Source: Marchantia polymorpha subsp. ruderalis (lineage: Eukaryota > Streptophyta > Marchantiopsida > Marchantiales > Marchantiaceae). Taken from it: a stretch of 64,000 nucleotides of DNA. The DNA lies in the NCBI GenBank assembly GCA_037833965.1, contig AP031358.1, forward strand, positions 16,996,001-17,060,000, read 5' to 3'. Positions 11,228-58,301 of the stretch are shown here, one piece after another. The notes under the pieces were generated by a model. That model searched no databases. It was not told the origin of the DNA and was given only the letters and a program-made list of their open reading frames with translations. A program made the position numbers and the translations under genes. Position 1 is the first letter of the stretch; every line of letters begins with the position of its first letter.

Positions 11228-11620
11228 TGTGGTAACACACTTTTTGTTTTTTTTGCAGAATTTAAACAATCTTGAAAAAGAAGTACCGAAGCAGTGTCTG
11301 TAGTTAAGAAATGGTACATTAAATAGAGTGTATTGAGGAGATCGCGGGTCACGGAGTGGGACGTACCGGCGCCAAACGCCTTCGGCGCCTTCGGCAAGAT
11401 CTCCTTTGCTGAGGTGTCTTTACCCACGCGCCTCCAGCGCTTAGAGAAGGTACACTTCCGGCACGGACACCTCCGGAGGAGATGTCGCTGAAGACGTCAG
11501 AAGCCGGCAAGGACCTCTAAAGGCTCCCGACCATGAGTGCGCCTTCGGCGATGCGCCGTTGGCGCGGGAAAGAAACCTTCATAACGATCAGGATTCACGG
11601 TAGTTCTAGTTGGTTGAGGT

Positions 11621-11657
11621 CTCATTGGAAAGAGCTCGGGACGCTCGTTCTAACGAG
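11621..11657 (+). repeat. Leader inverted repeat in unit A
   Basis: CTCATTGGAA and TTCTAACGAG face each other across 17 bp. The same hairpin occurs in the leaders of B (17728-17760), G (52468-52504) and three times in H, with some changes that keep pairing. Confidence 0.6.
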
Positions 11658-12666
11658 CCCAAGAGCGCCGGAGATGGATCAGGGACGAGGAAGTTATGAG
11701 CGTCGGAAAACTCGCATCCGGAGATGCGCTAGGGTTCACCTTCGGGAAGGACCCCCGTACGCCTTCGGCGATGCGCCTTCGGCGGAACCACGCGCTCATG
11801 AGAGGAGATCAAGTCGGAGGCGGAAGCGCCTTTGGCGACTGCGCAGCGGAAGAGAAGCGCCGGCCTGATGTACGCCTCCGACGTGGCGCGGACAGGCGGG
11901 TGCGCTGGCTTAATCCGTGCCGGTGGGATATGCGCCGTCGGCGATATGCGGGGCAGAACGGACAAAACAAGTGGTAAAAGTACGCGTCGGCGTAATTTGC
12001 GCCGACTTGATGTGCGCCTCCAACGAGGCGCCGACGGAGAAGGAGTACGCATGCGGCGATACGCCTCCGGCGATGGGCAGGTTGGGAAAAGACAACATAG
12101 TCGGAGCGTACGCTCCACTGCGGCGAACTCGAGTCCGGAAGCCCTCGGCGATGGCGAACTCAGAGCCGGAGGACGATGGCGGCGGGAGAATTCAACGTTC
12201 ACGCATGCGAATGCGCGCAGTGCGGAGTCGTGAATTCGAGCATGCGAGGGAGAACCGTTAGGCCGTATAGCCGGCTGCGTAATCAAGTTTGATTGTACCC
12301 AGTGAGAGCGTTGTGCGATCTTGAATTCGGAGAAGAAAAGTCTGCTCTCCAGTCTCATTCTCTCATTCTTGATTGTGAGTTTTCCAGCTTCAGAGCTTGA
12401 GCGCGCAAGGGCGGAGAGACCTTCAGTGAGTTGGAGAGAGTGCAGGAATCAGTGAGCAGGAAGGAGTGCGCAGCAACCAGGCGCGCGGAGGCGAGTTGCG
12501 CGAGGATCCTGACGGACCCCGGAGAGAGTTTGCGAGTAGAGAGATTGAGCGCGCAAGGAAGGAGAGAGCGATTTCAGTTAGTGTCTGAGCGGTCGACGTG
12601 CAGCGGCGATTGTGAGAGATCGAGCGGGAGGGAAGAACGTCTGTGTGTGCAGGGAGAGCAAGAAAG

Positions 12667-15213
12667 ATGTTGAAGGTCCCCCAACTGCGAGTGTCTCCAC
12701 TCAGAGTGCCGCATATCGGTCTGCGCGCATTCCAAGATGTGTTGACAAGGTTGAAGCTTGATTTCCTCCTGTGGGGATGGAATTGGACGTGTCCGGAGAT
12801 GGTGCGCGAATACTTGCGGGAGAAACACCAGCCCTCGCGCGGATTCCGCTCCCACCCCGAGAGGTGGAACATTAGTCACTGGGCGCAGGTATTAGGAAGG
12901 TGTGCAGGCGAGGAAGGGTATCTCCTCTTTGAGGCCGAGAGCGTGAAGGTGTCGAAGGAGGAAGAAGTCTCCTACAATGATCTTTTCAAAGTTGGCAAGC
13001 ATCCCAAAAACGGTTTCCGGACGCGGGATTACAAAGATCGATTGCGGAGAAATGTCGCGACTGCATTGCTTCTGATATTGCAGCCGACCAAGACCGCCTA
13101 CATGCATGGCTGGCAAGTGGGATTTGTGGAGCTAGTGTTGTCAGGAGCTCCGGTTCATTGGGCACGGCTCCTGTGGAAGGTGACGCGCCAACATGCGCAA
13201 GAAGAGAGAGGAGGGACCCTCAATCATCTTTCGCCTTACCTGATCGTGTTTTATCGAGCGATGGGATGTTTGACAGCTTCAGAGCGGGCGCGGTTTCCGC
13301 TGCTGACCCGGAGTAATCCGGGTAGATACTTGCGGGAGGCTGAAGTGGATACTGATCCGGACGAAGCACCGGCCAGTCCAGCTCCGGCTCCGGCAAGAGC
13401 AGAAGAAGGGCATCGAAGTGAGCGCGCACCGCGGAAGCGGAAATGGGATGAGAGACCAGAAGACAGGCAGCCGGAAGCTCCCGCTGCGCCGACTCGGAGT
13501 CGGCCAACCCACGAGCTTCACAGCCGGCCGAAACAGAGGGCACGCAAGATGGTGTTGCCAACTAGTAGTGAGGAGACCGGGCGTACTCCGGTCCGGCGGA
13601 GTGTCCTGCCCACGCAGGAGGAGATAATCGCGCAGGTTCTGGGGAGGTCGGTGAACCCCTCTGCGCAGAAGGCGCGGATGCCTTCAGAAGAAGACAGGCG
13701 AACTGACAGTCGGCCGACTGCGAGTCGGGCGACTGAAGGTCGGCCAACTGCAGGTCGGCAAGAGCAGCGCGTTGAACCGGACAGCAGGCCGGAAGCAGAA
13801 GGGAGTTTGGCTGAAGAGCCAACAACTCTCAGAGAGTCGTCTTCGGCAGAAGACGCTTCTGAGAAAACGCCTCCAGCAAAGAGGCCAAGTGGAGTAAAGA
13901 CGTGCAGAGTGGATCCGACTGCCAGTCGGACAACTGCTAGTCGGCCGACTGCGAGTCGGTCAACTAAGAGTCGGCCAGATTCGCCGACTACGAATCGGAC
14001 AGGACCAGCGACCATTGTGCGGGCGCCTTCGGCGGACACACCTCCGGCGAAGACACCTTCTGCGCAGATCGCGCCGGAAGAGCAGGCAGTAGAAGCGGGC
14101 GGTGCAGAGGTGACAAAAGTAACTGCGGCGCCGACCCCTTCGAGAACCGAAGATCGAGCCGGAACAGAGGCTCAGGCAGTGGGATCCTCCACTGCCTTGG
14201 ATATTTTAGCAGGGAGTGGAGCGGCAGTCGCGGCTGAAGCTGCCGCGCGCCACAGTTCCAGGGAGTCGCCAAGAGATTCTGTGGCGACTGAAATCCTCGA
14301 AACAGAGGATGAGACGAGTTCGGAAGAGCAGGAAGCGGACTCCGTGCGGGGGACGCCAACAGGGGTACGGTGCGAGCAGATAGTGCCGCTCTTGCGATAT
14401 TTGGATCGCAAGGCAGCAAAGTACGCGAGTTCCAGAAAACCGCAGTCTTATGTGGAGATTGTCAAGAGCAGGACGAGGAGCAAGGTGGCCATTTGGGCCA
14501 CTAGGTGCCAAACGTTGGAGATGAGGAATACTGCCCTCCAACAGCACCTGGCGATCATGAAGAGGCTACACCAAACCCTGCAACAACAGCGGGAGGATGC
14601 GGCGACGAAAGCCCAGGCGGATGTCGAGCTAATGCAGGCAAAGATCGAGTTGGAATTGCATGAAGAGCGGAGACAAAACCGCATTCTAACCGAGGAGCTT
14701 GCGCGCCAGACGCGCGTATTAGAGGAAGGTCAAAGCACGCGCAAGGCGGATGAGGAGTTGTTGCGCAACTTGCAATCCGAGTGCGCGGAATTGAGGGCGC
14801 AGCGCGCGGATGCGGAGATGCAACTGGCAGAGGTGGAAGACAGCAGCCGGACGCGAGAGGAGTTGGTGGCGCGGGTGACCCACTGTCTCAGAGGATACAC
14901 CCAATGGGAAGTGGCGGCACAAGAGAAGATCACGCTCAGGGAGTTTGAGCTTCGGGCGGCGGCGTTGACGGAGGGTGACAGTCGGAGTCGGCGGCGAGTG
15001 GCAAGGAAATTAGAGGCCTTCTTGTCGGGTGCGCGCGACACTATGGCGCACTTGGAGTCGGAAGTGACTGCAGTCCTTCGGCGGCTGGGGTTGCGCAGCC
15101 GGTCGGAAGATTGGCAGGGTAGGGAGATAGTGCGAGGCAGTCCGGCGCGCAGGAGGCGCAGTACCGGATCTGCAGAGTGCAGTAGTGTAGCTTGGTTTCG
15201 TGCAGGAGTTTAG
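12667..15213 (+). CDS. Unit A ORF: N-terminal domain, palindrome-rich linker and coiled coil (848 aa)
   Basis: The function is not known. I chose the start at 12667 (MLKVPQLRVSPLRVP) because units C and G start at the same point; an in-frame ATG at 12643 would add 8 residues. Residues about 1-225 form a conserved globular domain with LKLDFLLWGWNW and HWAQVLGRCAG, vaguely like the putative plant transposon-protein domains found next to gag genes (a weak inference). About 226-570 is a disordered Ser/Arg/Pro/Thr linker built from SRPTASR-type repeats. About 575-820 is a long heptad-rich coiled coil, and the tail AECSSVAWFRAGV is shared with unit B. The ORF is open throughout. A self-assembling, gag-like or DNA-binding role is possible but unproven. 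Confidence 0.75.
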   Translation: MLKVPQLRVSPLRVPHIGLRAFQDVLTRLKLDFLLWGWNWTCPEMVREYLREKHQPSRGFRSHPERWNISHWAQVLGRCAGEEGYLLFEAESVKVSKEEEVSYNDLFKVGKHPKNGFRTRDYKDRLRRNVATALLLILQPTKTAYMHGWQVGFVELVLSGAPVHWARLLWKVTRQHAQEERGGTLNHLSPYLIVFYRAMGCLTASERARFPLLTRSNPGRYLREAEVDTDPDEAPASPAPAPARAEEGHRSERAPRKRKWDERPEDRQPEAPAAPTRSRPTHELHSRPKQRARKMVLPTSSEETGRTPVRRSVLPTQEEIIAQVLGRSVNPSAQKARMPSEEDRRTDSRPTASRATEGRPTAGRQEQRVEPDSRPEAEGSLAEEPTTLRESSSAEDASEKTPPAKRPSGVKTCRVDPTASRTTASRPTASRSTKSRPDSPTTNRTGPATIVRAPSADTPPAKTPSAQIAPEEQAVEAGGAEVTKVTAAPTPSRTEDRAGTEAQAVGSSTALDILAGSGAAVAAEAAARHSSRESPRDSVATEILETEDETSSEEQEADSVRGTPTGVRCEQIVPLLRYLDRKAAKYASSRKPQSYVEIVKSRTRSKVAIWATRCQTLEMRNTALQQHLAIMKRLHQTLQQQREDAATKAQADVELMQAKIELELHEERRQNRILTEELARQTRVLEEGQSTRKADEELLRNLQSECAELRAQRADAEMQLAEVEDSSRTREELVARVTHCLRGYTQWEVAAQEKITLREFELRAAALTEGDSRSRRRVARKLEAFLSGARDTMAHLESEVTAVLRRLGLRSRSEDWQGREIVRGSPARRRRSTGSAECSSVAWFRAGV

Positions 15214-15257
15214 AGTAGCAGGTAGTGCAGCGTAGTGTTAGTTAGGACCTTAGAGAA

Positions 15258-15286
15258 TATAAAGTAGTTCAAGGCGTTTTGCCTTG
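15258..15286 (+). promoter_or_regulatory. TATA box and adjoining hairpin in unit A
   Basis: TATAAAG at 15258-15264 is followed at once by CAAGGC-GTTTT-GCCTTG (15270-15286). The arrangement recurs in B, C, D and H. It fits an LTR-type promoter about 0.9 kb before the 3' end of the unit. No transcription start can be shown from sequence. Confidence 0.55.
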
Positions 15287-16182
15287 GGATTCTTCCAGTT
15301 TCGGAAGTGCAGATCAGGAACTCACTTTCTCGGCGTGTTTGTGCGTTTGGTCCTGGCACCACGTAGAGGAGCTACAACTTAGTGAAGTTACCGCATTTTG
15401 TAGTTGAAGGCCTTCGGCTGAATGTTCAGAGCTAGTATACCGGTTAGAGACTTGAGTAGTGCGGATCTGCACCTGCGGGTGATTTCTGATGCTCAAAGCC
15501 GGTTGCGAGTTAGATACTTGAACAGTTCCCCCTTACTCCTTCGAGTGACTTATCCTGATTGTACTCCTACGGGAAGTTTCCCCTGAATGCCAAAGTGAAG
15601 TTTTTGTTACTTCGTGTAAACCTTGGTTATCAATTCAGGTTATGTGTGTGTGTGTTACTGGATTGTGTCTCAGTTGAGTTCTCAGTCGGGCCTGTACTCT
15701 CTGCGCTTAGTGTGAGTTGAGGGTGACGTCCACCGCGTATGAGTGACTTCGTTCCGAAGTGGGAAGTCCAATCCGGGTTCCCTAAGCCAGCAGAAACTAG
15801 CGGGAGGGTTGTAAAAGCCGGAGTGGGAGTCACTACCTGCAGAGTCTCTGAGTGTACTCTTGAGAGATTTTCCCCCTGAAATTCTAAGCGGAGGTCCCGA
15901 CCGACCTCCGAGTTGTGCTTTTCCAGTTTCAGGTGTGTGTGTGTGTGTTGAGTGACTTACGCTGCACTGTGCATCCTCCGAGCATCCTCCGAGTTGAGCA
16001 TCCTCCGAGCGGCCTCCGAGTCGAGCACTGCAGTATTTCTGGGAGTGACAGTCGCCTGAGAATTCAAACTCTCCAAAAGTCTGTTAAACGTGACACTTTG
16101 TACTCTGTGTGTTGCCTCTGTCCCTGTGGGTTCGATCTTTTTACCACCATACTGCAGTTTTAGCCTTTGGTGGGTTATTACA

Positions 16183-16273
16183 AAGAGGAACACTTGCAGT
16201 ACATTGACCTCGCATCACCCTGCCTGTAACAAGCTCCAAATTTCTCCCAAGTAACATCTTTTGGCTTCCCCAT
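16183..16273 (-). pseudogene. hAT transposase N-terminus (BED zinc finger), separated by unit A
   Basis: The minus strand from ATG at 16273 reads MGKPKDVTWEKFGACY and runs to Cys-Lys-Cys-Ser-Ser at the insertion point. Across unit A the other side (from 11222 down) continues with Cys-Lys, one stop, then GRMRDHYAGCKKRPRS. Ignoring the insert and one copy of its 5-bp duplication restores a C-X2-C...H-X3-C BED finger, the usual first domain of plant hAT transposases. This is the strongest evidence that the two parts were one gene and that A is an insertion. Confidence 0.75.
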
Positions 16274-17165: not shown

Positions 17166-17727
17166 TGTAATAACCCACCAAAGGCTAAAACTGCAGTATG
17201 GTGGTAAAAAGATCGAACCCACAGGGACAGAGGCAACACACAGAGTAAAAGTGTCACGTTTAACAGACTTTTGTAGAGTTTGAATTCTAGGCGACTGTCA
17301 CTCCCAGAAATACTGCAGTGCTCGACTCGGAGGCTCGACTCGGAGGAGGATCTCGACTCGGAGGATGCTCGGAGGATGCACGGTACAGCGTGGTCACTCA
17401 ACACACACACACTGTGGTACCCCACTTTTGGAAATTTTGAGGGAATTAAAACATTTTTGGAAAACTGTACCCTGGCAGCATTGTAAATAGCCTTCGGTAC
17501 ATCAAAACAGAGTGAATCCGGAAGATCGCGGGGATTCTCGAGGGATCTTGTAGAACCTGGGATTTGGGGTGCCGCAGTAAGGACAGGCACCACCCTCCCT
17601 GCGAGCTCCGCAGTTAGGATCTCTACGGCGCAAGGCGCAAAACCCGCCTTCGGAGGTTGCGTCCGCGGCTGTAGGGAAACCCCCGTAATTAGGTAAACCC
17701 TCGGGCGCCTTTACCAAGTTAGGATCC

Positions 17728-17760
17728 CGTTGGAAAGAGCTCGACGCGCTGATTCCAACG
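17728..17760 (+). repeat. Leader hairpin of unit B
   Basis: CGTTGGAA and TTCCAACG pair perfectly across 17 bp. Relative to the G-unit form (TTAGAA with TTCTAA) one base pair has changed on both sides. Confidence 0.55.
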
Positions 17761-18907
17761 AGCCCAAGAACGCTTGGAACGGACGAGGACTTAGAGAGTT
17801 ATCGCTACTGGAAGAAACGGAGGCGGTCGCCTACGGCGGAAGGAGTTCGCCACCGGCGCGAATTCCGCCTACGCGGAAGGGGGACTCAAGTTTTGTCCTA
17901 TGCACGGACGTAGGCGTTCGCCTGTGCACAGGCGAAGTAGGGTTAGGGAAGGCGCGAAGTCCGCCTACGCACAGACGTTCGCCTGTGCACAGGCACTTCG
18001 GCGTCGGCGGAAAATCCGCCTTGGGCCCTAGAAATGCGCCTTGTGAGGTAGAAAGTGTACGGCGCCTTCCGCGCCAGCGCAGCGCCGCGTACGTCGGAAG
18101 AGCCGCCAGAGTAATCCAACAGGTACGGACCGTGCGGACGGCACGGGTGGATGCGCTCTTGGACGGACGGAGTTGCGGCGGCGGAAGCGCCGACGGAGAG
18201 ACAAGGAACGGACAGACTGGACGGAGACGGCTGACCACGGTCAACGCCTTCCGCGCCAACGCAGCGCCGCGGACGGAATTCGCCTGCGCACAGGCGAACG
18301 CCTGTGCACAGGAGGATGGAGTTCCGCACCGGCGGAGGATCCGCCGAGGCTCCTGCCTGCGCACAGGCAGGAGTTGAATTTTTGTCCGACATGCGGACAC
18401 ACGCGTCAAGGCAGAAGGAGATTGGCCGAGGGGCGGTACGAACAAGTGTACCGCGCAAGGCGGAAAACTCGCCTTCGGCGCTACGCCCCCATGTCCGGAG
18501 GGTGACACGCTCGCGGAGTTCAAATCCGCCAATTCGAGCGTGAGAGTTTAATCGACGACGGCGGAGCGTGAAGCCGCGCGTGAGAGCGAAGACCGTTCCA
18601 GCGTACAGCCGGCGCGGCCATCAAGTGAGACGTTCTTCACGACCAAGAGCCGACCATGACCTTCGACCGGGCGGCGGAGAGCGTCCCATTCTTGAATTCG
18701 CGATTCCAATCTCTTGTGCGCGCTGCGCGCATCCATCTGCTGGCTGCGGACCATTCTCGACGTCGTCACACAGGAGATTTCTTGTTGATTGAGGGAGAAG
18801 TGAGTGCGCGTGATTTGGAATTGAGAGCGATTAGAGTTTGCCGAGAGAGAAAGAAACGCGGACAGTGCGGAAGTAGAATGAGCGGGCGAGCGAACCCCAG
18901 GAACGCA

Positions 18908-21760: not shown

Positions 21761-21796
21761 CGTAGTGCAGTGTAGTGTTTGGTAGGACTTAGAAGG

Positions 21797-21825
21797 TATA
21801 AAATAGTTCCAGGCGTTTTGCCTGG
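21797..21825 (+). promoter_or_regulatory. TATA box and hairpin of unit B
   Basis: TATAAAAT at 21797-21804 is followed by CCAGGC-GTTTT-GCCTGG (21809-21825). In the other units the stem is CAAGGC/GCCTTG, so one A:T pair is replaced by C:G here. Confidence 0.55.

Positions 21826-22760: not shown

Positions 22761-22764
<4 letters not shown>

Positions 22765-22799
<35 letters not shown>
22765..22799. repeat. CA microsatellite at the B/C junction
   Basis: A run of CA dinucleotides that belongs to the 3' region of unit C; the end of unit B abuts it. Similar GT runs lie at the same relative place in A (about 15933) and H (about 56877). Confidence 0.8.
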
Positions 22800-22800
<1 letters not shown>

Positions 22801-23502
22801 GAAACTGGCAAAAAGCACAACTCGGAGGTCGGTCAGGACCTCCGCTTCGGATTTCAGGAGGAAAGTGTCTCAAAAATTCACTCAGAGGTTCTGCAGGTAG
22901 TGCCTCCCACTCCGGCTTTTACTGCCCTTCCGCCAGGAACTAGCGTAGGGTACCCGGACTGGACTTCCCACTTCGGAACGAAGCCTCTTCATACACCGTG
23001 GACGTCACCCTCGACTCTCACACCAAACGCAGGGAGTGCAGACCCAACTGAGAACTTAACTGAGACACGATCCAGTAACACACACACAACCTGAATTGCA
23101 AACCAAGGCTTACACGAAGTAATAAAACTTCACTTTGGCATTCAGGGGAAACTTCCCGTAGGAGTACAATCAGATATGTCACTCGAAGGAGTAAGGGGGA
23201 ACTGTTCAAGTCTCTAACTCGCAGCCGGCTCTGAGCATCAGAAATCACCCGCAGGTGCAGATCCGCACTACTCAAGTCTCTAACCGGGTGCTAGCTCTAA
23301 ACATTCAGCCGAAGGCCTTCAACTACAACATACGGTAACTTCGCTATGCTGCAGTTTCTCTACGTGGTGCCAGGACCAAAATGCACAAACACGCCAAGAA
23401 AGTGAGTTCCTGATCTGCACTTCCGAAACTGGAAGAGTCCCAAGGCAAAACGCCTTGATCTACTTTATACCCTCAAAAAGTCCTAACCAGCACTACGCTA
23501 TC

Positions 23503-26056
23503 CTATCTACTACTCGCAGCATCTGCGCGAAACCAAACTATACTACTGCACGCGGCGGATCCGGTGCTGCGCCTCCTGCGTGCCGGACTGCTCTGCTCGC
23601 TGTCCCTTCCTTGCCAGTCTTCCGACCGGCTGCGCAACCCCAGGCGTCGGAGCGCTGCAGTGACTTCCGACTCTAAGTGCGCCATAGTGTCGCGCGCACC
23701 CCAAGAAGGTTTCTAATTTCCTCGCCACTCACCGCCGACTCCGACTGTCACCCTCCGTCAATGCCGCCGCCCGAAGCTCGAACTCCCTGAGTGTGATCTT
23801 CTCTTGAGCTGCCACCTCCCAATGGGCGTATCCTTTTGGACAATGGGTCACCCGTGTCGCCAACTCTTCTCGCGCCCTGCAGCTGCCTTCCACCTCTGCT
23901 AGCTGCATTTCCGCTTCCGCACGCTGCGCCCTCAAATCCGAGCACTCGGATTGCAAGTTGCGCAACAACTCCTCATCCTCCTTGCGGGCTCTTTGACTTT
24001 CTTCTAAGGCGCGCGTCTGGCGCGCAAGCTCGGCTGCTAGGACGTGGTTTTGTCTCCGCTCTTCCTGCAATTCCGACTCGATCTTTGCCCGTATTAGCTC
24101 GGCATCCGCCTGACTTTTCGTCGCCGCATCCTCCCTCTGCTGCTGCAAGGCTTGGTATAGCTTCTGTGTGACCGCCAGGTGTTGTCGGAGGGCGGTGTTC
24201 CTATCCACATATACTTGGCACCTAGAGGCCCAACGGGCCACCTTGCTCCTCGTCCTTCGCCTGATAGTCTCCACATAAGACTGCGGTTTTCCAGTACCTG
24301 CGTACTTGGATGTCTTGCGATCCAAATATCGCAGGAGTGGGACTATCTGCTCGCACAACACCCTTGTTGGCGTTTTCTGCACCGAATCCGCTTCCTGCTC
24401 TTCTGAGCTCGTCTCATCCTCAGTCTCGAGGATTTCAGTCGCCACCGAATCCCTTGGCGACTCCCTGGAACTGTGGCGCGCAGCAGCTTCCGCTGCGACT
24501 GCTGCCCCACTGCCTGCTAAAATATCCAGGGCAGTGGGAAATCCCACTGCTTGAGCCCCTGTTCCGGCTCGATCTTCGGTCTCCGAAGGGGTCGACGCCG
24601 CAGTGACTCTTGTCACCTTTGCACCGCCCGCTTCTGCTGCCTGCCCTTCCGGCGCAATCTGCGCAGAAGGTGTCTTCGCTGAAGGTGCGTCCGCCGAAGG
24701 CGTCCACACACTGGTCGCCGGCCCTGTCCGTCTCGCAGTCGGCAAATCCGGCCGACTCTCTGTTGTCCGACTCGCAGTCGGCCGACCAGCAGTTGTCCGA
24801 CTGGGAGTCGGATACACCCTGCGTGTCTTGACTCCACTTGGCCTGCTTGCTGGTGGCGTTTTCCCAGAAGTGCCTTCCGCCGAGGACGACCCTCTGAGGG
24901 TTGTTGGCTCGTCAGCCAAACTCTCTTCTGCTTCCGGCCTGCTGTCCGGTTCAACGCGCCGTTCAGTTGGCCTGCCTTCCGCTTGTCGGCCTTCAGTCGC
25001 CCGACTCGTAGTCGGCCGACTGTCAGTCCGTCCATCTCCTTCCGAAGGCATTGGTGCCTTCTGTGCAGAGGTATTTGTCGTCTTCCCTAGAATCTGCGCG
25101 ATTATATCCTCCTGTGTGAGATTCCGCCGGATCGGAGTACGCCCGGTCTCCTCAGTACCAGTTGGCATTTTGCGTGCCCTCTGTTTTGGTCGACTGTGAG
25201 GCTCGGGGGTGGGCTGACCACGAGTCGGTGCAGCTGGCACTTCCGGCTGCCTGTCCTCAGGTCTCTCATCCCACTTCCGCTTTCGCGGAATGCGCTCACT
25301 TCGACGTTCTTCTGCTGCTCTTGCTGGAGCCGGAGCCGGAGGCGGACTGGCAGGTTCCTCGTCCGGATCCGTGTCTACTTCGGCCTCCCTCGAGTATCTA
25401 CCTGGATAGCTCCGGGTCAGCAGCGGAAACCGTGTTTTCTCAGAATTTGTCAAACATCCCATCGCCCGATAAAACACGATCAAGTAAGGCGAAAGATGAT
25501 TGAGGGTTCCTCCTCTCTCTTCTTGCGCATGTTGGCGCGTCACCTTCCACAGGAGCCGTGCCCAATGCACTGGAGCTCCTGACAACACTAGCTCCACAAA
25601 TTCTACCTGCCAACCATGCATGTAAGCGGTCTTGGTCGGCTGCAATATCTGCAGCAATGCAGTCGCGACATTTCTCCGCAATCGATCTTTGTAATCCAGT
25701 GTCCGGAAACCGTTCTTGGGATGCCTGGCAACTTTGAAGAGCTCATTGTAGGAGATTTCTTCCTCCTGGGACACCTTCACGCTATCGGCCTCGAAGAGGA
25801 GATCCCCTTCCTCGCCGGCACACCTGCCCAACACCTGCGCCCAATTACAAATGTCCCATCTTTCTGGATGTGGACGGAATCCGCGAGAGGGCTTGTGTCT
25901 CTCCTGCAGATACTCGCGCACCATCTCCGGACATGTCCAGTTCCACCCCCACAGGAGAAAATCGAGCTTTAGCCCCAGCAGCACATCTTGAAATGCGCGT
26001 AGACCGATCTACGGCACCCTGAGTGGAGACACTCGCAGCTGGGGAACCTTCGACAT
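23503..26056 (-). pseudogene. Unit C ORF, disabled copy of the unit A ORF
   Basis: From ATG at 26056 the minus strand follows the unit A protein closely. Three lesions are visible. Codon 16 is TAG (26009-26011), where unit G has CAG. A TGA stands at 23729-23731, where A has CGA. A 2-bp deletion near 23705 shifts the last segment, which ends at 23503. The central 750 codons (25984-23729) remain open, so decay is recent. The linker still carries TASRTTESRPD-type repeats made by CCGACT/AGTCGG inverted repeats. Confidence 0.8.
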
Positions 26057-27416
26057 GGCGTTTTCCTGCACACACAAACATTCTCCCCTTCGCTCGTTCT
26101 CTCACAATCGCCACTGCGCGTCGGCCGCTCAAGCCCTGACTGCTCACTCTCTCTTCGCTCACGCTCAAGTTCGCTACTCGCAATTCTCTCCAAGGCCTGT
26201 CAAGATCCTCGCGCAACTCGTCTCCGCACTCTCTCCTCTCACTGCAGGTCTCTCCGCCCTTGCGCGTAATCTTGGAAACTGGAAATCGCAAAATCAAGAA
26301 TGAGAGAATGAGACTGGAGCGCAGTCTTTCTTCTCCGAATTCAAGAACGTCCAACGTTCTTACTGGTTACAACGTACGCAGCCGGCTATACGGCCTAACG
26401 GTTCGCCCTTTGCATGCGCGAATTCACGTCTCCGCACTGCGCGCATTCGCATGCGTGAATGTTGAATTCTCCCGCCGCCGCCGCCTTCCGGACTCGAGTC
26501 CGCCGCAGGGTATACGTCGGCTATGTTGTCTTTCCCTAACCCGTCCGTCACCGGAGGCGTGTCGCCGCTGGTGCGTTCCTTATCCGTCGGCGCCTTGCTG
26601 GAGGCGCACATCTAGTCGGAGCGAATTACGCCGGCGCGCAGTCGTACCGCTTATTTTGTCCTTTATGCCTCGTCCATTGCTGACGGCGCATATCCGCCAG
26701 CGCAAATCATGCCAGCGCATCCGGCCGTCAGCGCCACGCCGGAGGCGTACATCCGACCGGCGCTTTCCTTCCATGAGCAGCCGCCAAAGGCGCTTCCGAC
26801 TCTGAGTTGGTTTCCTCCTATGAGCGCGTGATTCCGCCGAAGGCGCATCGCCGAGGGCGTACGGGAATCCTTTCCGGCTGTGAACCCTAGCGCGAACGGC
26901 GCATGTCCGGCTACGAGTTTTCCGACGCTCATAACTTCTCCGTCCCTGATCCATCTCCGACGCCCTTGGGCTCGTTAGAACAAGCGTCCCGAGCTCTTTC
27001 TAATGAAACTTCAATCAACTGGATCTACCGTGTATTCCGATCGTTATGAAGGTTTTCCCTTTCCGCGCTAGCGGCGCATCGCCGAAGGCGTACTCATGGT
27101 CGGACGCCTTTCAGAGGTCCGGGCCCTTCTCCTGACGTCTTTAGCAAAACCTCCTCCTGAGGTGTCTGCGCCGGGAGTGTAGCTTCCTTATACGCTGGAA
27201 GCGCGTGAGTAGAGACACCTCAGAAAAGGAGCTTTTGCCGAAGGCGCCGAAGACATTGGCGTTGGTACATCCGACTACGTGATTCTTCGTAACCTTGTGA
27301 CGATCTCCTCAATCCACTCTATTTAACGTACCCTTTTCTAACTACAAACACTGCTTCGGTACTAGTTTTCTAAAATTGTTTAAATTCTGCAAAAAAACAA
27401 AAAGTGTGTTACCACA

Positions 27417-46604: not shown

Positions 46605-49600
46605 GCGTCACAAGAAATGCTAGACGAAGAGGCCAGCAGGTCACGGTGAAACCCACTGGATACGGTGACACACTAACGGTGTACTTCTACATACGGTCGT
46701 ATTGATATAGCCAAAAGTCTAGGTAATCTCTGGAATTAACTCTATGAGCAGGGTCTTTAGTGAACGCAAAACAATATTCCATGTTGTGCAAAGCTCCACA
46801 AATTATGAGATATTTAAAGAAATTTAATCACAATTGGATGTATTTAGTTAAATTTTCTGTCCCCACTTTCCACTTATTTCAACGAACTTCCGCATGTTCA
46901 CTCCACTAAAGAAAGTGAAGATGCTCGGCTGAATATTATTGACTTTTTTGGTGGGACCTTATCTAACAAGTAGACCCCAAATTGCAATGTACAAAAAAGT
47001 GACTTGATTGCACAGTCCACCCGAATCAAGCCATGCATTCTATTCTTTTTGAACACACATTCCGAGGAGACTTTGAGCTCAGTTGAATATGTCAACGCAG
47101 AGGCCTCATTATTCCAGCGCAGAAGTCTCATGATTATTTCTGCTTTCTTCACTGCACGTGGTGGCACCAGGTCTTCCTGTGGACCTGGACTATCCCTGTT
47201 GTAGCCAAATAGTCCGCAAGACTCAGTCTCTCAAACGAAGAATTTGTTACTCCTTGTCTTTTTCACTTCCCATGGTTTTGTCTGAATCTGGTTGTTTAAA
47301 TTTACCCTTGCCTGGAAAAGAAAAGAAAATAGAAATTTGGCACACAGCTTGAAATCCGATCATATTTTACTGAGGGCACGCCATCGACTATAACAATTTA
47401 GCTACATTTTTAAAAGACAACTAGCAGTTAGAAGTTTCTGTTGTACATTTCTTCTTTGCTCCAGCTCGAATTTCATATCGTAAGCTTGGCCTGAACTATA
47501 CCCCTTTCAGTATCATCTACCGGGAAGGTTTCCATGAAAGCACAATAGACCCGACCCTGCCGAGAGAAGTGTATGTTTCCCATTTTCACTTTCTCAACTC
47601 CGGTCCTTTGTCTACAATCAAATCACTATCGATGAACAATGATTTGATTGTAGGCAAATAAGTGGTGATGGGTGACTTACTCCAATTTACTGAAGTGGGC
47701 AGTCAATTGTGGAATTGCCACACTGGAAACTGCAAACTTTTATCGAATCTTTACCTCATTCTTGTGTTTGACTCTCTGGGAGTCCATGGCGGACCGGGTG
47801 ATTTTGTTAAAACCGCAAAGCCAAAATGAATGAACCTGAATCAGGAAAAGCGTGGTGCTTGGATGACACACTATTTTCACCAGTTCAAACCTCACCGCGT
47901 CATGAATCTTGCCACCAGAAACAACGTCTGCTGCGGTTTCTGCAAATCTGCATCACCTTGCGAAGCACGCCGATTACAGGGAATCTCCGAGTACCAGCGA
48001 GCAGATTGTCTCAAAATGTGCTGTAAGGAAGACTTTCCCGTACCTGATCTCAGCGTTAGCACTTATAAGAAATTATCGACCTCTACTACTGCAGGCTCAA
48101 GATCAATTCCTTCGGAATAAATTCCCTTGCTTATAGAATTTACAGCAGACAACCACACTGCTACTAAATCACCTATTCTGTCACTCCTGACAGCAGCTCC
48201 AAAATAAGCAGATACATTGTTCAAAAATTGTTCCGACCTAGTTCAGAGAAAATTCAGCATAGATGACAGATTAGGCGTGACCAATCTAGCTAGCTGCAGT
48301 CACATCTCTAAGAAGTCATTCAGATTCTGACTTCTTCTCATAACGAGGTAGCCACGGAGCCCCCTGTCAGATAATGCGTACCACGTAGCAAGTAGATGCG
48401 GCGTCTATCATTATGATTTCGTCTGAAATAACGTCTCGTCACTGTATGGTACTGTGGTCGTGTACGTAATGTCCTGACAAGCGAGAACTCGGTTCTTCTA
48501 AACAGATGTTCTAGTGAAGAAAGATGTCACAGGACATGAAAATGGCTTTTTTAACGGTTATTTTTAACGTTAAACCGATTCTTACTTCTTGCACCCTCTT
48601 TCTCACAAACTTCGCACCATCCTCAACGTAAAACTGCAATGTCTTTCCAATCACAGGCCATACATCTGACAAGGAGGTTTGGGCCGCTGGTTTTGTCTCT
48701 CCCAGACCCTGCCGCTAGAATGCATGACGAGTGTTGCGAATTCCAAGTGAGGAAAGTCCACGTTTTGACTATGGTCGGACCATGCACATATCCGAGATTT
48801 AGTTAGGCAAACGGATTGTACACCGCATTGAAGCTGAGAGTCTCGCTCAACTTGATTGAGCTTGAGTTGGAGGAATCAGAATGCTGTTTTCTGGACTACA
48901 TTAGTAGATGTACAATCTCGAGTCATGCACCGAATCGAGTATGGATATCCTTCTCCGTTCACTTCATCCCATTGACCATGACCTCTTGTCTCTGATCTCG
49001 ACAGAGTATTAAAAGGTGGTTATCACCAACGTTACAGAGGGATAGCTTCGTCCACTTCAGGCCCATGCCTCTGCAATCCAACCATACACGAAAAATATTA
49101 TGCGTGATCAATTTCGACTCAACATTTTCAACCGAAATCACGCTCACTTCGATATTCAGCAAACGATGTTCTCCATCCTTACAAAAAAAATACTCGATAT
49201 TACAGTCAAATTTCTGCAAGAGTCTCTGTAACTGAACGTCCACACGCAGTCCAAGTGCAAAAGCATGCGTTTATACACGTCACAGTTCTGAGCGTGCTGG
49301 CGCTTATCAGTCTACTGAGATCACGGCCAGCACAAGCATTTCATCAGGGTCTTTCACACAGAGACCTTAGCATGACCTGAACCATGGCTTACTAGAATTG
49401 AAATCTTGGGTTGTGGATGATTCTGTCTGCATGTTCAACAGGTTCAAGGAGGGCAGCGATGCCCACTCCTCGAATACCTTTTAAGTAGAGATTAAGACGG
49501 GAAGCATCGAGACAGGGGAAGAGACATACGGAACAAAATCACATCAACAATTTTATCAATGGCGCTTCATTTCTGGTTTAGCAGATGCAAGCTAAATTAT

Positions 49601-49669
49601 CATCACGTCTCGAGTCAATAGTGGATGACCTGAATCAAACAACGCTGATCCAGTCTCAGTAACTCCCGT
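46605..49669. repeat. Repeat unit F, copy 4, with a 370-bp insertion
   Basis: It closely matches copy 2. About 370 bp at 48235-48601 is absent from copy 2; I found no clear inverted ends or duplication for it, though it holds a hairpin AAGAAGTCA/TGACTTCTT. Minus-strand frames 46898-47167, 48959-49243 (94 codons, DGEHRLLNIEVSVISVENVE) and 49592-49792 (LDERYSFYLDEESYVHTL) are the best-preserved coding-like segments of the unit. The product is not recognised. Confidence 0.65.
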
Positions 49670-50830
49670 GAGTGTATGCACATAACTCTCTTCGTCCAGA
49701 TAGAAAGAATATCTCTCGTCTAAGCGAAACAGTATACGTTTCAGCTCACTACTAGAGAATTTATGTAAAATTCGAGAGACTTGATCTCTCAAGTTTCCAC
49801 TTTGTCTCGTATATGATGCATGAAGCCTTCATTGATTCATACTTTACGGACCACCTCACCTCTACAATTCGAAGCTACAGTTTCAGACATTTTTCATGTT
49901 AGAATGGAAAGAGGATACGTTTCAGCACACTAAAGAAGAATTAATGTCAGTTTCGACAGTCTTGATTTCATATGTTCCTCTTCGTCTAGCATATGATGCA
50001 TGAAGTCTTCATTGATTGATACTTTACGCTCCATTTCGTCCCTGCATTTCTGAGCTAGTATGGATTTTCACTAGTATGTATTAAAAATGATCTTAAAATG
50101 GGAACTACAGCAATTCGGCACCTGGATAGCAATATCCAGCGCTGGATACATTTGCATATCAGATCTTTTGTGATAGATGGGTGATGGAAGGTTGTGATTT
50201 CATTAGCAGCTTATTGGTATCAATAAAGTATCCATCTCCCGGCATTACATACATTCTGTACTTCTGATGATGGCCGAATCGAGGTTTGTTAAAAATATTT
50301 ATCAGTACACCTGATGACCCTCTTTGTCAAGCTTTCAAAGAAAGATTGTAGATCTGATAACACAACATCATCTGAGGAAGTGTGTGTAGCTATACTGATA
50401 CCGATAATTGTAAGCTCTAGTAAATTATCAAAAAACAATTAGGGGCAGTAGCTGATGTGTTCAATAGCTGTCGTGCTTAAACAATGCTACCAACTCTAAA
50501 ATATAAAAGAACATAACCTTCATTCCTGTCCATTCTACAGTTGTTGGACCCTCATCATTCAGAACAATCATACAGGTCTATGTATTGGAATTCAAGACTG
50601 ACCGATGGTCAGTCTTGAATCAAAAATTTTGTCCATCATGTGAAAATTTCATAGTTTAGCCAAATTCTGATTTCTTCAGAAACATAACTGCGCGATTGAC
50701 ATGATTGAATAGATTTTAAAAGACTTGTACAAGTGAAAATTCTATGAAAGATTTTGCAGAGGTTCAAGTGCATGAGGATCTAAACATATGCTTGTCATTG
50801 GCATAATGACATTCTAACCTCTTCAAATTC
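49670..50830. other. Duplicate of the ROCO downstream spacer
   Basis: Nearly the same sequence as 35471-36666, but lacking the second palindrome arm. It has a small hairpin AAGACTGACC/GGTCAGTCTT at about 50599-50621 that is imperfect in the other copy. No gene. Confidence 0.6.
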
Positions 50831-52061
50831 CTAATCTGTCAAAATTCCTGAACTATGACCTTTATTCATGCACTCCTCGCACACCCATGCATGCCCACCT
50901 AATTCTAGCCTCAGGTATTTCACCTGGTACAACTTGAAGATTGCCGAATAGTTAATATGCGCAAGAGTTTGCTGAATCCTCAGCCATGCTTCTTCCAGCT
51001 CCTTGCTTTCCTCACCTTTTAGAACTGCCATACTATCACAATCGCTAATGCCATCTAGTCTAACAACATCAGATTTTAACTCTTCCCAATTCGGAATCGC
51101 TTGGCCCAACCCGCATATCACATCCAGTCCAGCCTTCACAGCATAATGCATGAGTTTGATTGAGATTTCAATAGTTTTCCGAATCCATGCTCTATTCTCC
51201 CAATCCAAGCGTATCTTCAACCCTTCTTGATCTTTGACAATGTGAAACCCATTCACTGACTCACACATCAAGTGTAAGCGAACAGTTTTCCTAACATGCG
51301 CAAATGCACTCATCTGGTAGAAAACGCCAACATCGGCCGTGATGTAAGGTCGCTTGGGAGCTCTCGCTTGACAAAGCGATTGGGAATACTGAATGATACT
51401 GTCCACTTTTGACATGAAAGAACTGGACGTTGACTGCAGTTGTTGTTGCAAAGAGAGTATCTGTCCCACCTTATTTTCTAATCTCTGCACAATGCTCACC
51501 ACCGATCTCAACCCCTCATCCACACCATCAAACCTTCGTCCCATATATCCTTCTAGCTTATCTATCTTGGACAAAATAAGTTGGGTTGAACTATTTTCTA
51601 CACTTGTGTTCGCCTGACTTAAGCACCTGGATGAAGGTCGATTGGAGTCTTTCATATCATGAAATTTTGAATTGTTAGCCATGTTCTCATCTTCAGCCTG
51701 AGAATGAACCAAATCATTGTTCACGCTGATTATACCTTGCTGCAATCACTCCAATTGTTGGATAAGGTCTTCCTGCAATGACTCCAATTGTTGCAATCAC
51801 TTTTGTCGGATCTCACTCAAAATCGCTTCCACATCGCTATCCCACAGCAACTCCCTAGCTCTTTCGAATATAACTTGTGTTGTGTGCCTTTTAATCAAGG
51901 GCCAACCGTACTCATAGTTGAACAACTCATCTTCCTTCTCCAAGTGCGATTTCTCCAACGGAATATCCTCAAGTTTGTCATTGATGCTACGAATGAATTT
52001 TGATTTCAGATCCTTGATTAAAATTGTCCCTCTCAAAAGACTCGGAATCAGCAAATCCACA
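50831..52061 (-). pseudogene. ROCO gene copy, C-terminal part only, cut by unit G
   Basis: The minus strand matches the last exon of the intact ROCO gene from its stop up to about 37890, then ends at unit G. A 304-codon frame (51745-50831) is still open and encodes the coiled-coil and C-terminal part. Upstream of it two stops appear where the intact gene has CGA and TCA codons (both now TGA). The LRR, Roc and most of the COR region are absent from the window, lying beyond unit G if they exist. Divergence from the intact copy is low, so the duplication is recent. Confidence 0.85.
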
Positions 52062-53477
52062 TGTGGTAACACACTTTTTGTTTTTTTGCAGAATTTAAAC
52101 AATTTTAGAAAAGAAGTACCGAAGCAGTGTCTGTAGTTAGGAAATGGTACGTTAAATAGAGTGGATTGAGGAGATCGTCACGAAATCACGAAGAATCGTG
52201 GAGTTGGACGTACCAGCGCCAAACGCCTTCGGCGCCTTCGGCAAGATCTCCTTTGCTGAGGTGTCTCTACCCACGCGCCTCCAGCGCTTAGGAAAGGTAC
52301 GCTTCCGGCACAGACAACTCTGGAGGAGATGTCGCTGAAGACGTCAGAAGCCGGCAAGGTTCTCTGAAGGCTTCCGACCATGAGTGCGCCTTCGGCGATG
52401 CGCCGTTGGCGCGGGAGGGAAACCTTCATAACGATCAGGATTCACGGTAGTTCTATTTGATTGAGGTCTCATTAGAAAGAGCTCGGGACGCTCGTTCTAA
52501 CGAGCCCAAGAGCGCCGGGGATGGATCAGGGACGAAGAAGTTATGAGCGTCGGAAAACTTGCATCCGGACATGCGCTGTTCGCGCTAGGGTTCACCGTCG
52601 GAAAGGACCCCCGTACGCCTTCGGCGATGCGCCTTCGGCGGAACCACGCGCTCATAAGAGGAGATCAACTCAGAGGCGGAAGTGCCTTTGGCGGCTGCGC
52701 AGCGGAAGAGAAGCGCTGACCTGATGTACGCCTCCGACGTGGCACGGACAGGCGGGTGCGCTGGCATAATTCGCGCCAGCGGCATATGCGCCGTCGGCGA
52801 TATGCGGGGCAGAACGGACAAAACAAGTGGTACGAATACGCGCCGGCGTAATTCGCGCCGACTTGATGTGCGGCTCCAGCGAGGCGCCGACGGAGAAGGA
52901 ATACGCCAGCGGGGATACGCCTCCGGCGATGGGTAGGTTGGGAAAAGACAACATAGTCGAAGCATACGCTCCACTGCGGCAAACTCGAGTCCGGAAGCCC
53001 TCGGCGATGGCGAACTCAGAGCCGGAGGTCGATGGCGGCGGGAGAATTCAACGTTCACGCATGCGAATGCGCGCAGTGCGGAGTTGTGAATTCGAGCATG
53101 CGAGGGAGAACCGTTAGGCCGTATAGCCGGCAGCGTAATCAAGTTTGATTGTACCCAGTGAGAACGTTGGGCGATCTTGAATTCGGAGAAGAAAAGTCTG
53201 CTCTCCAGTCTCATTCTCTCATTCTTGATTGTGAGTTTTCCAGCTTCAGAGATTAAGCGCAAGGGCGGAGAGACCTGCAGTGAGAAGAGAGAGTGCGGAG
53301 ACGAGTGCACGAGGATCTTGACGGACCTTGCAGAGAGTTTGCGAGCAGAGAAATTGAGCGCGCAAGAGAAGAGAGAGCGATTTCAGTCAGTGTCTGAGCG
53401 GCCGACGCGCAGCGGCGATTGTGAGAGATCGAGCGGAAGGGAAGAACGTCTGTGTGTGTGCAGGGAAAGCAAGAAAG

Positions 53478-54518
53478 ATGTCGAAGGTCCCCCAGCTGCG
53501 AGTGTCTCCACTGAGAGTGCCGCAGATCGGTCTACGCGCATTCCAAGATGTGTTGACAAGGTTGAAGCTTGATTTCCTCCTGTGGGGATGGAATTGGACG
53601 TGTCCGGAGATGGTGCGCGAGTATTTGCAGGAGAAACACCAGCCCTCGCGCGGATTCCGCCCACACCCCGAGAAGTGGGACATTAGTCACTGGGCGCAGG
53701 TGTTAGGAAGGTGTGCAGGCGAGGAAGGGTATCTCCTCTTCGAGGCCGAGAGCGTGAAGGTGTCGAAGGAGGAAGAAGTCTCCTACAATGATCTTTTCAA
53801 AGTTGGCAAGCATCCCAAGAACGGTTTCCGGACGCGGGATTACAAAGATCGATTGCGGAGAAATGTCGCGACTGCATTGCTTCAGATATTGCAGCCGACC
53901 AAGACCGCCTACATGCATGGTTGGCAAGTGGGATTTGTGGAGCTAGTGTTGTCAGGAGCTCCGGTTCATTGGGCACGGCTCCTGTGGAAGGTGACGCGCC
54001 AACATGCGCAAGAAGAGAGAGGAGGGACCCTCAATCATCTTTCGCCTTACCTGATCGTGTTTTATCGAGCGATGGGATGTTTGACAGCTTCAGAGCGGAC
54101 ACGGTTTCCGCTGCTGACCCGGAGTAATCCGGGTAGATACTTGCGGGAGGCTGAAGTGGACACAGATCCGGACGAAGCACCTGCCAGTCCAACTTCAGCT
54201 CCGGCTCCGGCAAGAGCAGCAGAAGAGCGTCGAAGTGAGCGCGCACCGCGGAAGCGGAAATGGGATGAGAGAATTGAAGACAGGCAGCCGGAAGCTCCCG
54301 CTGCGCCGACTCGGAGTCGGCCAACCCACGAGCTTCACAGCCGGCCGAAACAGAGGGCACGCAAGATGGTGTTGCCCACTAGTAGTGAGGAGACTGGGCG
54401 TACTCCAGTCCGGCGGAGTATCCTGCCCACGCAGGAGGAGATAATCGTGCAGATTCTGGGGAGGTCGGTGAACCCCTCTGCGCAGAAGGCGCGGATGCCT
54501 TCAGAAGAAGACAGTTGA
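53478..54518 (+). pseudogene. Unit G ORF, 5' part, ending at a nonsense codon
   Basis: From MSKVPQLRVSPLRVPQIG it follows the unit A ORF for 346 codons and then stops at TGA (54516-54518), where A reads CGA after AGG. H is inserted 30 bp downstream. The rest of the linker continues at 57105-57438 in the same frame as A (GRPTAGRQ...EPTTLRGSS), up to the gypsy insertion. Confidence 0.85.
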
Positions 54519-54770
54519 ACTGACAGTCGGCCGACTGCGAGTCGGGCGTGTGGTAACCCACTTTTTGTTTTTTTGTCGGAACTAAAACATTTTTGAATAG
54601 TAAGTACCGCGGCAGCAGCTGTAAATAGTAATCGGTACGTGAAACCAGAGTAAAAAGAGGATCGAGGACAGTCAAGGGGTTTTGGGCTTAGGCCACAGTG
54701 GGACGCTTAGGACGGAACGGGCGGTTCATGCTGCAGGATCCGCTTCGAGCACCTTCGGCGGTAGATCACT

Positions 54771-55660
54771 CATAACTTTCTCAATTCGTAACGCCTTGAG
54801 TTTCTTCGGGTCTCGTTGGAAAGAACCCAACGCGCTGGTTCTAACGAGCCCAAGAACGTGTGAAACGGATGAGAGGTCACTGAGTTATGAGTGTCGGAAG
54901 TTACTGATGGGAGGCCTTCGGCGGAAGAACCGCCGGAAGATGCGCCTTCGGCGGTAGACGCCTTCGGGTCAACGCCTTCGGCGATGCGGGAGAGTGCATT
55001 TGGCGGAAGAGTGAATCCCTCATAACTTTCTCAATTTGCAACGCCTTGACTTGGTTAGGGTCTCGTTGGAAAGAACTCGACGCGCTGATTCCAACGAGCC
55101 CAAGAACGCCAACAACGGATGAGAACTCCGGGAGTTATGAAGGTTGTAAGATACTCAGCTTTCCGCCTTCGCCAAGGCGAAAAAAGTTTTGTCCTATGCG
55201 CGGACGAAGGAAGTTCGCCTGTGCACAGGCGAAATAGGGTTTTTTTGACGTAGGCGCGAAGTTCGCCTACGCACAGGCGTTCGCCTGTGCACAGGCGCTT
55301 TGGCATCGGCGGGAAATCCGCCTTCGGCCCTAGAAATGCGCCTTCGGGGTTGGAACTTGTACGGCGCCAGCGCAACAGCGCGGAATGACACGGACGCCTG
55401 CAAGTAGGCGGACGCCTGTGGATAGGCGGCCTGTGCACAGGCGGACGGCCTGTGCATAGGCGGTCTGCGGGTAGGACGCAGACGCCTGCGGATAGGCGAA
55501 CGCCTTCGGCGGAAGAGTAAGAACCGTCATAACTTTCTCAATTCTTAACGGTTTGACTTATTTAGGGTCTTGTTGGAAAGAACTCGCAACGCTTGTTCTA
55601 ACGAGACCAAGAACTCTTGGAATGGATAAGGCGTCACTGAGTTATGAGCGTCGAAAGCGG
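54771..55660 (+). repeat. Three tandem blocks with a conserved hairpin in the H leader
   Basis: Blocks near 54771, 55021 and 55528 each carry CATAACTTTCTCAATT followed by the inverted repeat CTCGTTGGAA / TTCYAACGAG (for example 55062-55071 with 55089-55098, a perfect 10-bp stem and 17-bp loop). Confidence 0.75.
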
Positions 55661-56119
55661 CTGTCATGGTTAGGAGAGAGGCCTTCGGCGTTAACATATA
55701 GAGGAGCCTTCGGCGTTAACAGTTAGAGGGGCCTTCGGCCCAAGGCGGCCTGCGAGTAGGCGGCTTGCGTGTAGGACGCGTGGGACCCACAGTACTCGGA
55801 TTTTGGAGAAGGAATTTTGGCCTAGGTTTAGAGATCTTGCGGGGCCCATATCTTTGCGATGGACGGTCGGATGGATGTGAAATTTTGTGGAGCCGTTGAT
55901 CTCGGCCGGCCACGCAGGCCTGCAAATTTTCAGCCTCAGATCTTGGATGGAAAGGCGCTGGCGGCTCTGTACAGTAGGCTTAGGATTCAGATTTAGGGTT
56001 AGGGTTAGATTTAGGTTGTAAGTCAGAGGGGAAGGCAGCCGCCGACTCCTCAGGTGTAGGATCTGTTGCGGCTCGCACCACGGCGTAGTGCAGTGTAGTG
56101 CTAGTTAGGACTTAGAAGG

Positions 56120-56148
56120 TATAAAGTAGTTCAAGGCGTCTTGCCTTG
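56120..56148 (+). promoter_or_regulatory. TATA box and hairpin of unit H
   Basis: TATAAAG at 56120-56126 and CAAGGC-GTCTT-GCCTTG at 56132-56148, at the same place relative to the 3' end as in units A and B. Confidence 0.55.
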
Positions 56149-57438
56149 TGATCTTTCCTAACATCAGAAGTGCAGATCAAGAACTCATTTTCTCTGCGTG
56201 TTTGTGTCCTTACTTCTGTCACCACGCAAGAGGAGCTGCAACTTGGCGTTCCGAATTTTGTAGCTAAAGGCCTTCGGCCGAATGTTCAGAGCTAGTACAT
56301 TGGTTAGAGACTTGAGTAGTTCGGATCTACACCTGCGGGTGATTGCCGATGCTCAGAGCCAGTGACTAGTTAGATACTTGAATAGTTTCGCCCCTACACT
56401 TTCGAGTGTTTGTTCCTGATTGTACTCCTTCGGGATTTTTCCCCTGAATGCCAAAGTGAAGTTTTGCGACTTCGTGTAAGCCTTGGTTGTAAATTCAGGT
56501 TACGCTGCAGCAGGTGCCTTCAGGGTTACCCCTGTAGTATTTCTGGGAATGACAAGTGCCTAAGAATTCAAACTCTTCAATAGACTGTCATTGTGTTACT
56601 GGAATGTTTCTCAGTGAGTCCTTAAGTGCCGACCTGTGTTCTCTGCGTGTTTTGTGAGTTGAGAGTGTTGTTCACCGCGTATGAGTGACTTCGATCCGAA
56701 GTAGGCAGTCCAACCCGGGTTTCCTACGCTAGCAGCAAGCTAGTGGAAGTGTTGTAAAAGCCGGAGTTTGGAGTCACTACCCGCAGCTTCGCTGAGTGTA
56801 CTCTTGAGAGACCTTCCCCCTAAAATCTTGAGTAGAGGTCCTAACGGATCTCTGGGTTGTGTTTCTGTAGTTTCAGGTGTGTGTGTGTGTGTGTGTGTGT
56901 GTTACGCTGCACTGTGCGACCTCCGAGTGCGCTCCGAGTGGACACTTGCAGTATTTCTGGGAGTGACAGTCGCCTGAGAATTCAAACTCCTCAATAGTCT
57001 GTTAAACGTGACACTTTGTACCCTGTGTGTTCCTCTGTCCCTGTGGGTTCGACCTTTCTACCACTATATTGCAGTTTTAGCCTTTAGTGGGTTATTACAG
57101 GGCGACTGAAGGACGGCCAACTGCAGGTCGGCAAGAGCCGCGCGTTGAACCGGACAGCAGGCCGGAAGCAGAAGGGAGTTTGGCTGAAGAGCCAACAACG
57201 CTCAGAGGGTCGTCTTCGGCAGGAGGCGCTTCTGAGAAAACGCCTCCAGCAAGCAGGCCAAGTGGAGTAAAGACGCGCAGGGTGGATCTGACTGCCAGTC
57301 GGACAACTGCTAGTCGGCCAACTGCGAGTCGGTCAACTGAGAGTCGGCCAGATTCGCCGACTGCGAATCGGACAAGGCCGGTGACCATTGTACGGGCGCC
57401 TTCGGCGGACACACCTCCGGCGAAGACACCTTCCGCGC

Positions 57439-58297: not shown

Positions 58298-58301
58298 TTT
58301 T

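Follow-up and report, generated by a model that had tools for sequence, protein, structure and literature searches.

What kind of mobile element occurs as units of several kilobases that begin with TG, end with CA and encode one long protein, but carry neither a polymerase nor a transposase? The question is raised by a 64,000-nucleotide stretch of the Marchantia polymorpha subsp. ruderalis genome (the window; C9:16996001-17060000 of a 241-Mb, nine-contig genome). A sequence-only reading of this window had described a family of such units and proposed either solo long terminal repeats (LTRs) with a very large unique 3' region (U3) or DNA transposons with terminal inverted repeats (TIRs). We find that the TGTGGTA units are LTRs, the solo copies included, and that those in the window are solo, nested or truncated. 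They very probably belong to an abundant, recently active Ty3/gypsy-type element of about 15.5 kb whose LTR carries a maintained gene within U3.

The units share the ends TGTGGTA...TTATTACA, as proposed earlier and borne out by self-comparison and end searches. A genome search with the first 1 kb of unit A gave 2106 first-look candidates, 40 of which were scored. We examined 20 scored copies in stretches of about 10 kb: ten were single LTRs, seven continued beyond the LTR end, and three (L022, L028 and L033), rearranged or nested, were left unscored. The target site duplication (TSD) of the ten single-LTR loci is exact in nine and has one change in the other; at L023 it belongs to a nested unit inside the one searched. 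The seven continuing copies (L024, L025, L026, L027, L029, L034 and L036) share a conserved word after TTATTACA, which stops at the primer site in L029, L034 and L036. An internal start word (a 22-nt spacer plus the first primer-site bases) has 1255 genome matches at three or fewer mismatches, and a polypurine tract abutting TGTGGTA has 1230 at two or fewer; both controls gave 0.

The first 100 matches of each junction were listed, all exact, and the 55 listed starts on C1 to C3 were paired by hand. The nearest end lies 5758-5787 bp downstream on the same strand for 35 of the 55; four starts have an end at 612-731 bp and are internally deleted, and three have one at 10-16 kb. Among the listed junctions, reversed order at 5-7 kb was seen once and opposite strands never; some C1 copies seem to belong to duplicated blocks (L034 and L036 represent one event), and the pairs are not all independent. 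Two direct-orientation units flanking gag-pol, the arrangement that the sequence-only reading had proposed to look for, are thus present at fixed spacing on the same strand. One element (C1:393369..377831; 15539 bp, with LTRs of 4870 bp) has moved recently, since its TSD is exact (GGACG on both flanks) and its LTR 3' ends are identical at 1470 of 1470 bp compared. Genome-wide, LTR 3'-end words number 6406 at one or fewer mismatches (control, 17), and 1378 LTR ends are followed by the internal start at two or fewer mismatches over 29 bases. If 3' LTRs are equally many, more than half of the LTR ends would be solo or fragmentary, although the mismatch thresholds of the two counts differ. The family is abundant and recently mobile; for comparison, 222 full-length LTR elements have been reported for a M. 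polymorpha ruderalis assembly (PMC9985172). Three start/end pairs stand in a row at C3:17733784-17740911, with about 730 bp from start to end and about 3.19 kb from one pair to the next; they are tandem copies of a derivative with a short internal region.

Between LTRs of about 4.9 kb, the internal region of about 5.8 kb holds gag-protease, reverse transcriptase, RNase H, integrase and a polypurine tract. The earlier statement that there is no polymerase is true of the units themselves; the genome carries the family's polymerase between paired units. A Pfam scan of one element (L045) found gag (PF03732, Retrotrans_gag, 1e-13), three zinc knuckles, a weaker protease (1e-4), RVT_1 (8e-27), RNase H (9e-36), and the integrase zinc-binding (7e-14) and core (rve, 4e-14) domains. 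This order, gag-protease-reverse transcriptase-RNase H-integrase, is that of the Ty3/gypsy superfamily. The scan found no chromodomain in pol at E up to 10, as a chromovirus would have, and listed no second RNase H of the archaeal type (aRH), by which Tat elements are recognized. The primer site, TGGCGCCGCTGCCGGGGA, had been expected right after TTATTACA and is present, 22 nt downstream rather than directly adjoining. It is the exact complement (18 of 18 nt) of the tRNA-Asp(GTC) 3' end plus CCA; this 3' end has 31 exact genome occurrences, and both loci checked with ARAGORN are tRNA-Asp. Primers other than tRNA-Met are used by non-chromoviruses (PMC6317226), a trait that the family shares with the OTA (Tat/Athila) lineage. 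An in-frame TAG CAA CTA stands between gag-protease and pol in five of five copies read (L045, 2980-2982 of the minus-strand reading; L051-L054). It fits the UAG-CARYYA consensus of tobamovirus-type readthrough (PMC3542737), a likeness in sequence alone; gag-pol organizations with a leaky stop have been called rare (PMC3441728). The family is a Ty3/gypsy-type LTR retrotransposon with a tRNA-Asp primer and a conserved TAG between gag-protease and pol. Because the pol stop lies 37 nt before the 3' LTR, there is no room between them for an internal third gene.

In the reverse-transcription scheme, the 22 nt of spacer that separate the LTR end from the primer site would place the complementary DNA (cDNA) end 22 nt past the integrated end. 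In 20 copies the spacer and TG are followed by a base other than G. L034 and L036 join LTR, spacer and TG to foreign DNA, with no TSD and with 9 bp of target missing relative to L018, and L029 has the same breakpoint. As a lead, these junctions are possibly unprocessed cDNA ends joined without integrase; other copies may carry plain point changes.

Where, then, does the long frame lie with respect to the promoter? A single TATAWA box on the ORF strand stands 922-1036 bp before the 3' end in 11 of 11 complete LTRs examined, in agreement with the 0.9-1 kb of the sequence-only reading, and the larger part of unit B also carries one, though interrupted by the insertion of unit C. Transcription would start just past this box, and U3 would then be about 4 kb long and contain the long open reading frame (ORF), as had been claimed; this is right for full-size units, provided that the box marks the transcript start. 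The ORF stop (TAG) lies about 40-45 bp upstream of the box in A and C. Full-size LTRs therefore have a complete ORF between LTR start and putative promoter, a gene inside the LTR in the manner of sag. A palindrome follows the box (about 15268-15284 in A, CAAGGCGTTTTGCCTTG; matching place in C, CCAGGCGTTTTGCCTGG), and both of its arms differ between subfamilies. Folding of three stretches near the box, which start past most of the palindrome, gave nothing above shuffled sequences.

The U3 ORF of full-size LTRs is 850-1030 codons long, and intact frames of about 850-1050 codons recur in the genome. The long ORF ascribed to the units in general is absent from unit S and mostly absent from unit D, which retains a C-terminal piece (49% identity across 240 aligned residues). 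The C-terminal 173-177 codons are found in eight of eight examined LTRs joined to a full primer site at a listed junction (L037-L044, several of them near-identical neighbors on C1) and are open in seven. Two full-length scored copies, both with stops, lie directly before listed start junctions (C1:2091541-2094111 and C3:29869219-29871774). Among the best 53 copies scored from 13460 first-look candidates, nine are stop-free. Aligning A with C gives identities of 44-58% across the first 1.4 kb of U3, 55-62% in the N-terminal domain, which needs no gaps, 40-75% in the C-terminal part and 79-94% past the TATA box, the most conserved stretch. Nei-Gojobori ratios of nonsynonymous to synonymous substitution (dN/dS) were computed for 14 of 21 long frames, over pairs of at least 60 codons and with no value from saturated pairs. 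They range over 0.04-0.45 in the N-terminal domain, 0.18-1.12 in the middle and 0.09-0.67 in the C-terminal part; for A against C they are 0.22, 0.44 and 0.15. These ratios argue that the terminal parts are under purifying selection and that the gene is selectively maintained.

The protein appears to consist of a helix-rich N-terminal domain (in a low-confidence model), a low-complexity middle and a C-terminus with heptad-like patterning. Pfam matches to the ORFs of A, B, C and H were weak and sub-threshold (best E 0.019), with no transposase family among them. No transmembrane segment was found, as an Env-like protein would have (top 19-residue Kyte-Doolittle mean 1.14 in C and 1.24 in A). 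Relatives are all hypothetical proteins of Marchantia polymorpha in the 33 of 39 matches that were named; these searches depend on shared 5-residue words, with candidates taken from among the matches listed. A search for membership of the N-terminal domain in PF20167 gave no match, but neither did the control genomes, so it speaks neither for nor against this assignment. That this domain is a duplicate capsid was rejected, hhalign of its alignment against the element's gag giving a probability of 0.65%.

Not every LTR of the family has the gene. Starting at the final base of the stop codon of C's ORF and continuing through the LTR end, unit S is 93% identical to unit C; elsewhere the similarity is patchy, and a comparison of S with the U3 protein gave nothing convincing (best E 0.016). 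An 801-bp query over the gene-less boundary found 39 further copies that span it at 93-96% identity (among 40 scored of 3259 first-look candidates), which counters a loss of the gene in S alone after insertion. Gene-less LTRs have spread: S has an exact TSD, and the form recurs at no fewer than 39 further loci. The U3 gene is thus probably not needed in cis, and its product may be supplied to them in trans. It is conceivable, if rather doubtful, that intact solo LTRs supply a trans-acting U3 factor after gag-pol loss and that the gene-less form, seen in S and at least 39 further copies, exploits this factor as a cheater lineage. If so, the unit on which the U3 gene evolves would be the population of LTRs and not the full-length element.

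Other explanations of the units and their ORF deserve weighing. Cut-and-paste transposons with TIRs (TGT..ACA), 5-bp duplications and a transposase-like or accessory ORF would account for single copies with exact 5-bp duplications and for the pairing of the ends, which occurs over 13 bp, as reported earlier, with three mismatches in A, three in C and two in S. LTRs, too, commonly have short imperfect inverted ends, and recombination between two LTRs is expected to leave single copies with exact TSDs. More than 1200 units run into the primer site and more than 1200 follow the polypurine tract, with gag-pol between at fixed spacing, and the unit ORFs show neither a transposase family nor, in the N-terminal domain, any match at E up to 10; we regard TIR elements as excluded for practical purposes. 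A different proposal keeps the LTRs and moves the transcript start to near the LTR 5' end, which would make the ORF a first cistron upstream of gag. The leader of more than 1 kb upstream of the ORF speaks for it, as does the public gene model P0011, which fuses part of the ORF to gag but is predicted and partial. The repeat region (R) would then measure about 4 kb, which would be unusual; moreover, in the complete gene-bearing LTRs examined the sole TATAWA box lies past the ORF and is followed by the part best conserved between subfamilies. We judge such a leader gene improbable.

Slightly less probable still is that the element has no use for the ORF, which would be a piece of a host gene picked up by capture or a frame open by chance in GC-rich sequence. 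Capture of host genes by LTR elements is known (PMC7264820), the widespread gene-less LTRs lack the ORF, and the low-complexity middle third evolves almost neutrally in several pairs (dN/dS up to 1.12). Against this stand the N-terminal domain, ungapped between subfamilies whose 5' U3 flanks have diverged to 44-58% identity, the low A-C ratios in both terminal parts, and the recurrence of intact frames of about 850-1050 codons; the protein searches, within the reach of shared 5-residue words, gave no source host gene.

A maintained U3 gene in an LTR retrotransposon remains our preferred reading, and several points weigh against it. No listed end lies within 25 kb of 13 of the 55 listed starts. 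Stops interrupt 44 of the 53 scored gene copies, as in any decaying family. The dN/dS frames were selected as open, pairs are non-independent, the A-C synonymous distance is near saturation and some pairs give no value; despite these limits the direction is consistent in the N-terminal domain. That domain has no Pfam family at E up to 10, and its model, all helical, is poor, with a predicted local distance difference test (pLDDT) score of 41 and a predicted template modeling (pTM) score of 0.31. The spread of gene-less LTRs indicates that the gene is not essential in cis. Expression of the gene is suggested by selection only. Likewise conditional are its function, most likely that of an accessory factor acting in trans for the family, and its origin, in which the polypurine tract has probably moved 5' of a sense-strand gene formerly located between pol and the 3' LTR.

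We therefore picture the life of a gene carried in U3 as follows. It would be present in a single copy toward the 3' end of the genomic RNA, as the last gene there, or on a transcript of its own. Its position would be that of a third gene, env or accessory, except that it stands beyond the polypurine tract; as this tract, between pol and the LTR, lies upstream of the gene, each reverse transcription would write the gene into both LTRs. LTR-LTR recombination would then delete gag-pol and spare the gene, leaving solo LTRs as free-standing gene copies, most of them decayed.

The units of the window, their borders set by self-BLAST and end mapping, are listed below; our letters (A, B, C, D, H, S) need not equal those of the earlier reading. 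They do not form a row of separate copies, as had been supposed, but are nested, C inside B and S inside H. The duplications claimed for them are exact in A, C and S and have one change in B; D has none, and H lacks a testable 3' end. That of C (CACAC) is weak evidence, lying within a CA repeat. The target of the B insertion is a repeat with another copy at 37604-38346 (self-BLAST). The word CCCTGTGGGTTCGA occurs in the window four times exactly and once with two mismatches (0.26 expected at two or fewer mismatches in shuffled sequence).

Features of the LTR family in the window (positions in the 64,000-nucleotide stretch)
Feature	Position	Strand	Description
Unit A	11228-16182	+	complete solo LTR, 4955 bp, TGTGG..TTACA; exact TSD AAGAG (11223-11227 / 16183-16187)
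U3 gene of unit A	12643-15213	+	856 codons from GTG; first ATG at 12667
TATA box of unit A	15258-15263	+	45 bp past ORF stop; only TATAWA in the LTR on that strand; putative promoter of the retroviral-type transcript
Unit B	17166-27416 (27416..22768 plus 17412..17166)	-	LTR split by unit C; TSD TTCCC/GTCCC, one change
ORF of unit B	23729-25984	-	751 codons
Unit C	17413-22767	+	complete LTR, second subfamily, 5355 bp; in a (CA)n stretch of unit B
U3 gene of unit C	18656-21760	+	1034 codons; some database relatives start at an inner ATG, codon 85
Unit D	27726-30241	-	LTR without N-terminal part of U3 gene; no TSD
Unit H, 5' part	52062-54548	+	A-type LTR; ORF fragment 53421-54518; continues at 57100-57438
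Unit S	54549-57099	+	2551-bp LTR without U3 gene, within U3 gene of unit H; exact TSD GGGCG
Unit H, continuation	57100-57438	+	ended by next element; 3' end and TSD of H therefore beyond reach

The element that ends unit H is a second gypsy element (57439-64000, + strand), which starts with TGTAAGACC inside H. Over 801 aligned residues its pol shares 47% identity with the pol of the LTR family, and from 59642 onward a gag-protease-pol frame of 1453 codons stays open as far as the window reaches. Between the units, 30900-52061 consists of duplicated blocks (34397-37897 and 48602-52061 are 93% identical). An ORF at 38302-39609 (- strand) matches Roc and COR-A, and the region looks like a duplicated Roc-COR gene family struck by LTRs.

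Under this reading, each full-size LTR, solo copies included, is a potential gene copy, and a solo LTR becomes a retained gene rather than a scar. The family also allows the passage of a gene across the polypurine tract to be put to the test. It is large, its host belongs to a model-plant genus, and gene annotation in Marchantia polymorpha is affected, since public databases list relatives of the U3 protein as hypothetical proteins. Giant LTRs are known, as are extra ORFs and solo LTRs; a gene inside the U3 of a plant LTR is not usually reported. In the open-access literature (subscription papers and Repbase lay outside the scope) we found neither a plant element reported to have a third gene within its LTRs nor a Marchantia element with a gene in its LTR, and a phrase search for ORFs in LTRs, judged by titles and the starts of abstracts, gave no plant case. 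Two reviews and one survey place extra ORFs in the internal region (PMC7264820, PMC11963269, PMC6317226).

Non-chromoviruses, with LTRs of up to about 5 kb, resemble the Marchantia element in gag-pol type, non-tRNA-Met primer, 5-bp duplications and giant LTRs (PMC6317226). By the descriptions available there, their extra genes are internal, up- or downstream of gag-pol, which sets them apart from a gene inside the LTRs. Athila and Bagy2 (PMC7264820) and SIRE (PMC6317226) likewise have a third sense gene directly 3' of pol; theirs lies between pol and the 3' LTR, whereas the Marchantia gene lies 3' of the polypurine tract, is present in both LTRs and is kept by solo LTRs. Unlike Env-like third-gene products, the U3 protein has no transmembrane segment and is in that respect not Env-like. 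An accessory gene in U3, or running into it, is familiar from mouse mammary tumor virus (sag) and lentiviruses (nef, which only overlaps U3). The Marchantia protein is much larger and belongs to a plant element without env, and the likeness to sag and nef is one of arrangement.
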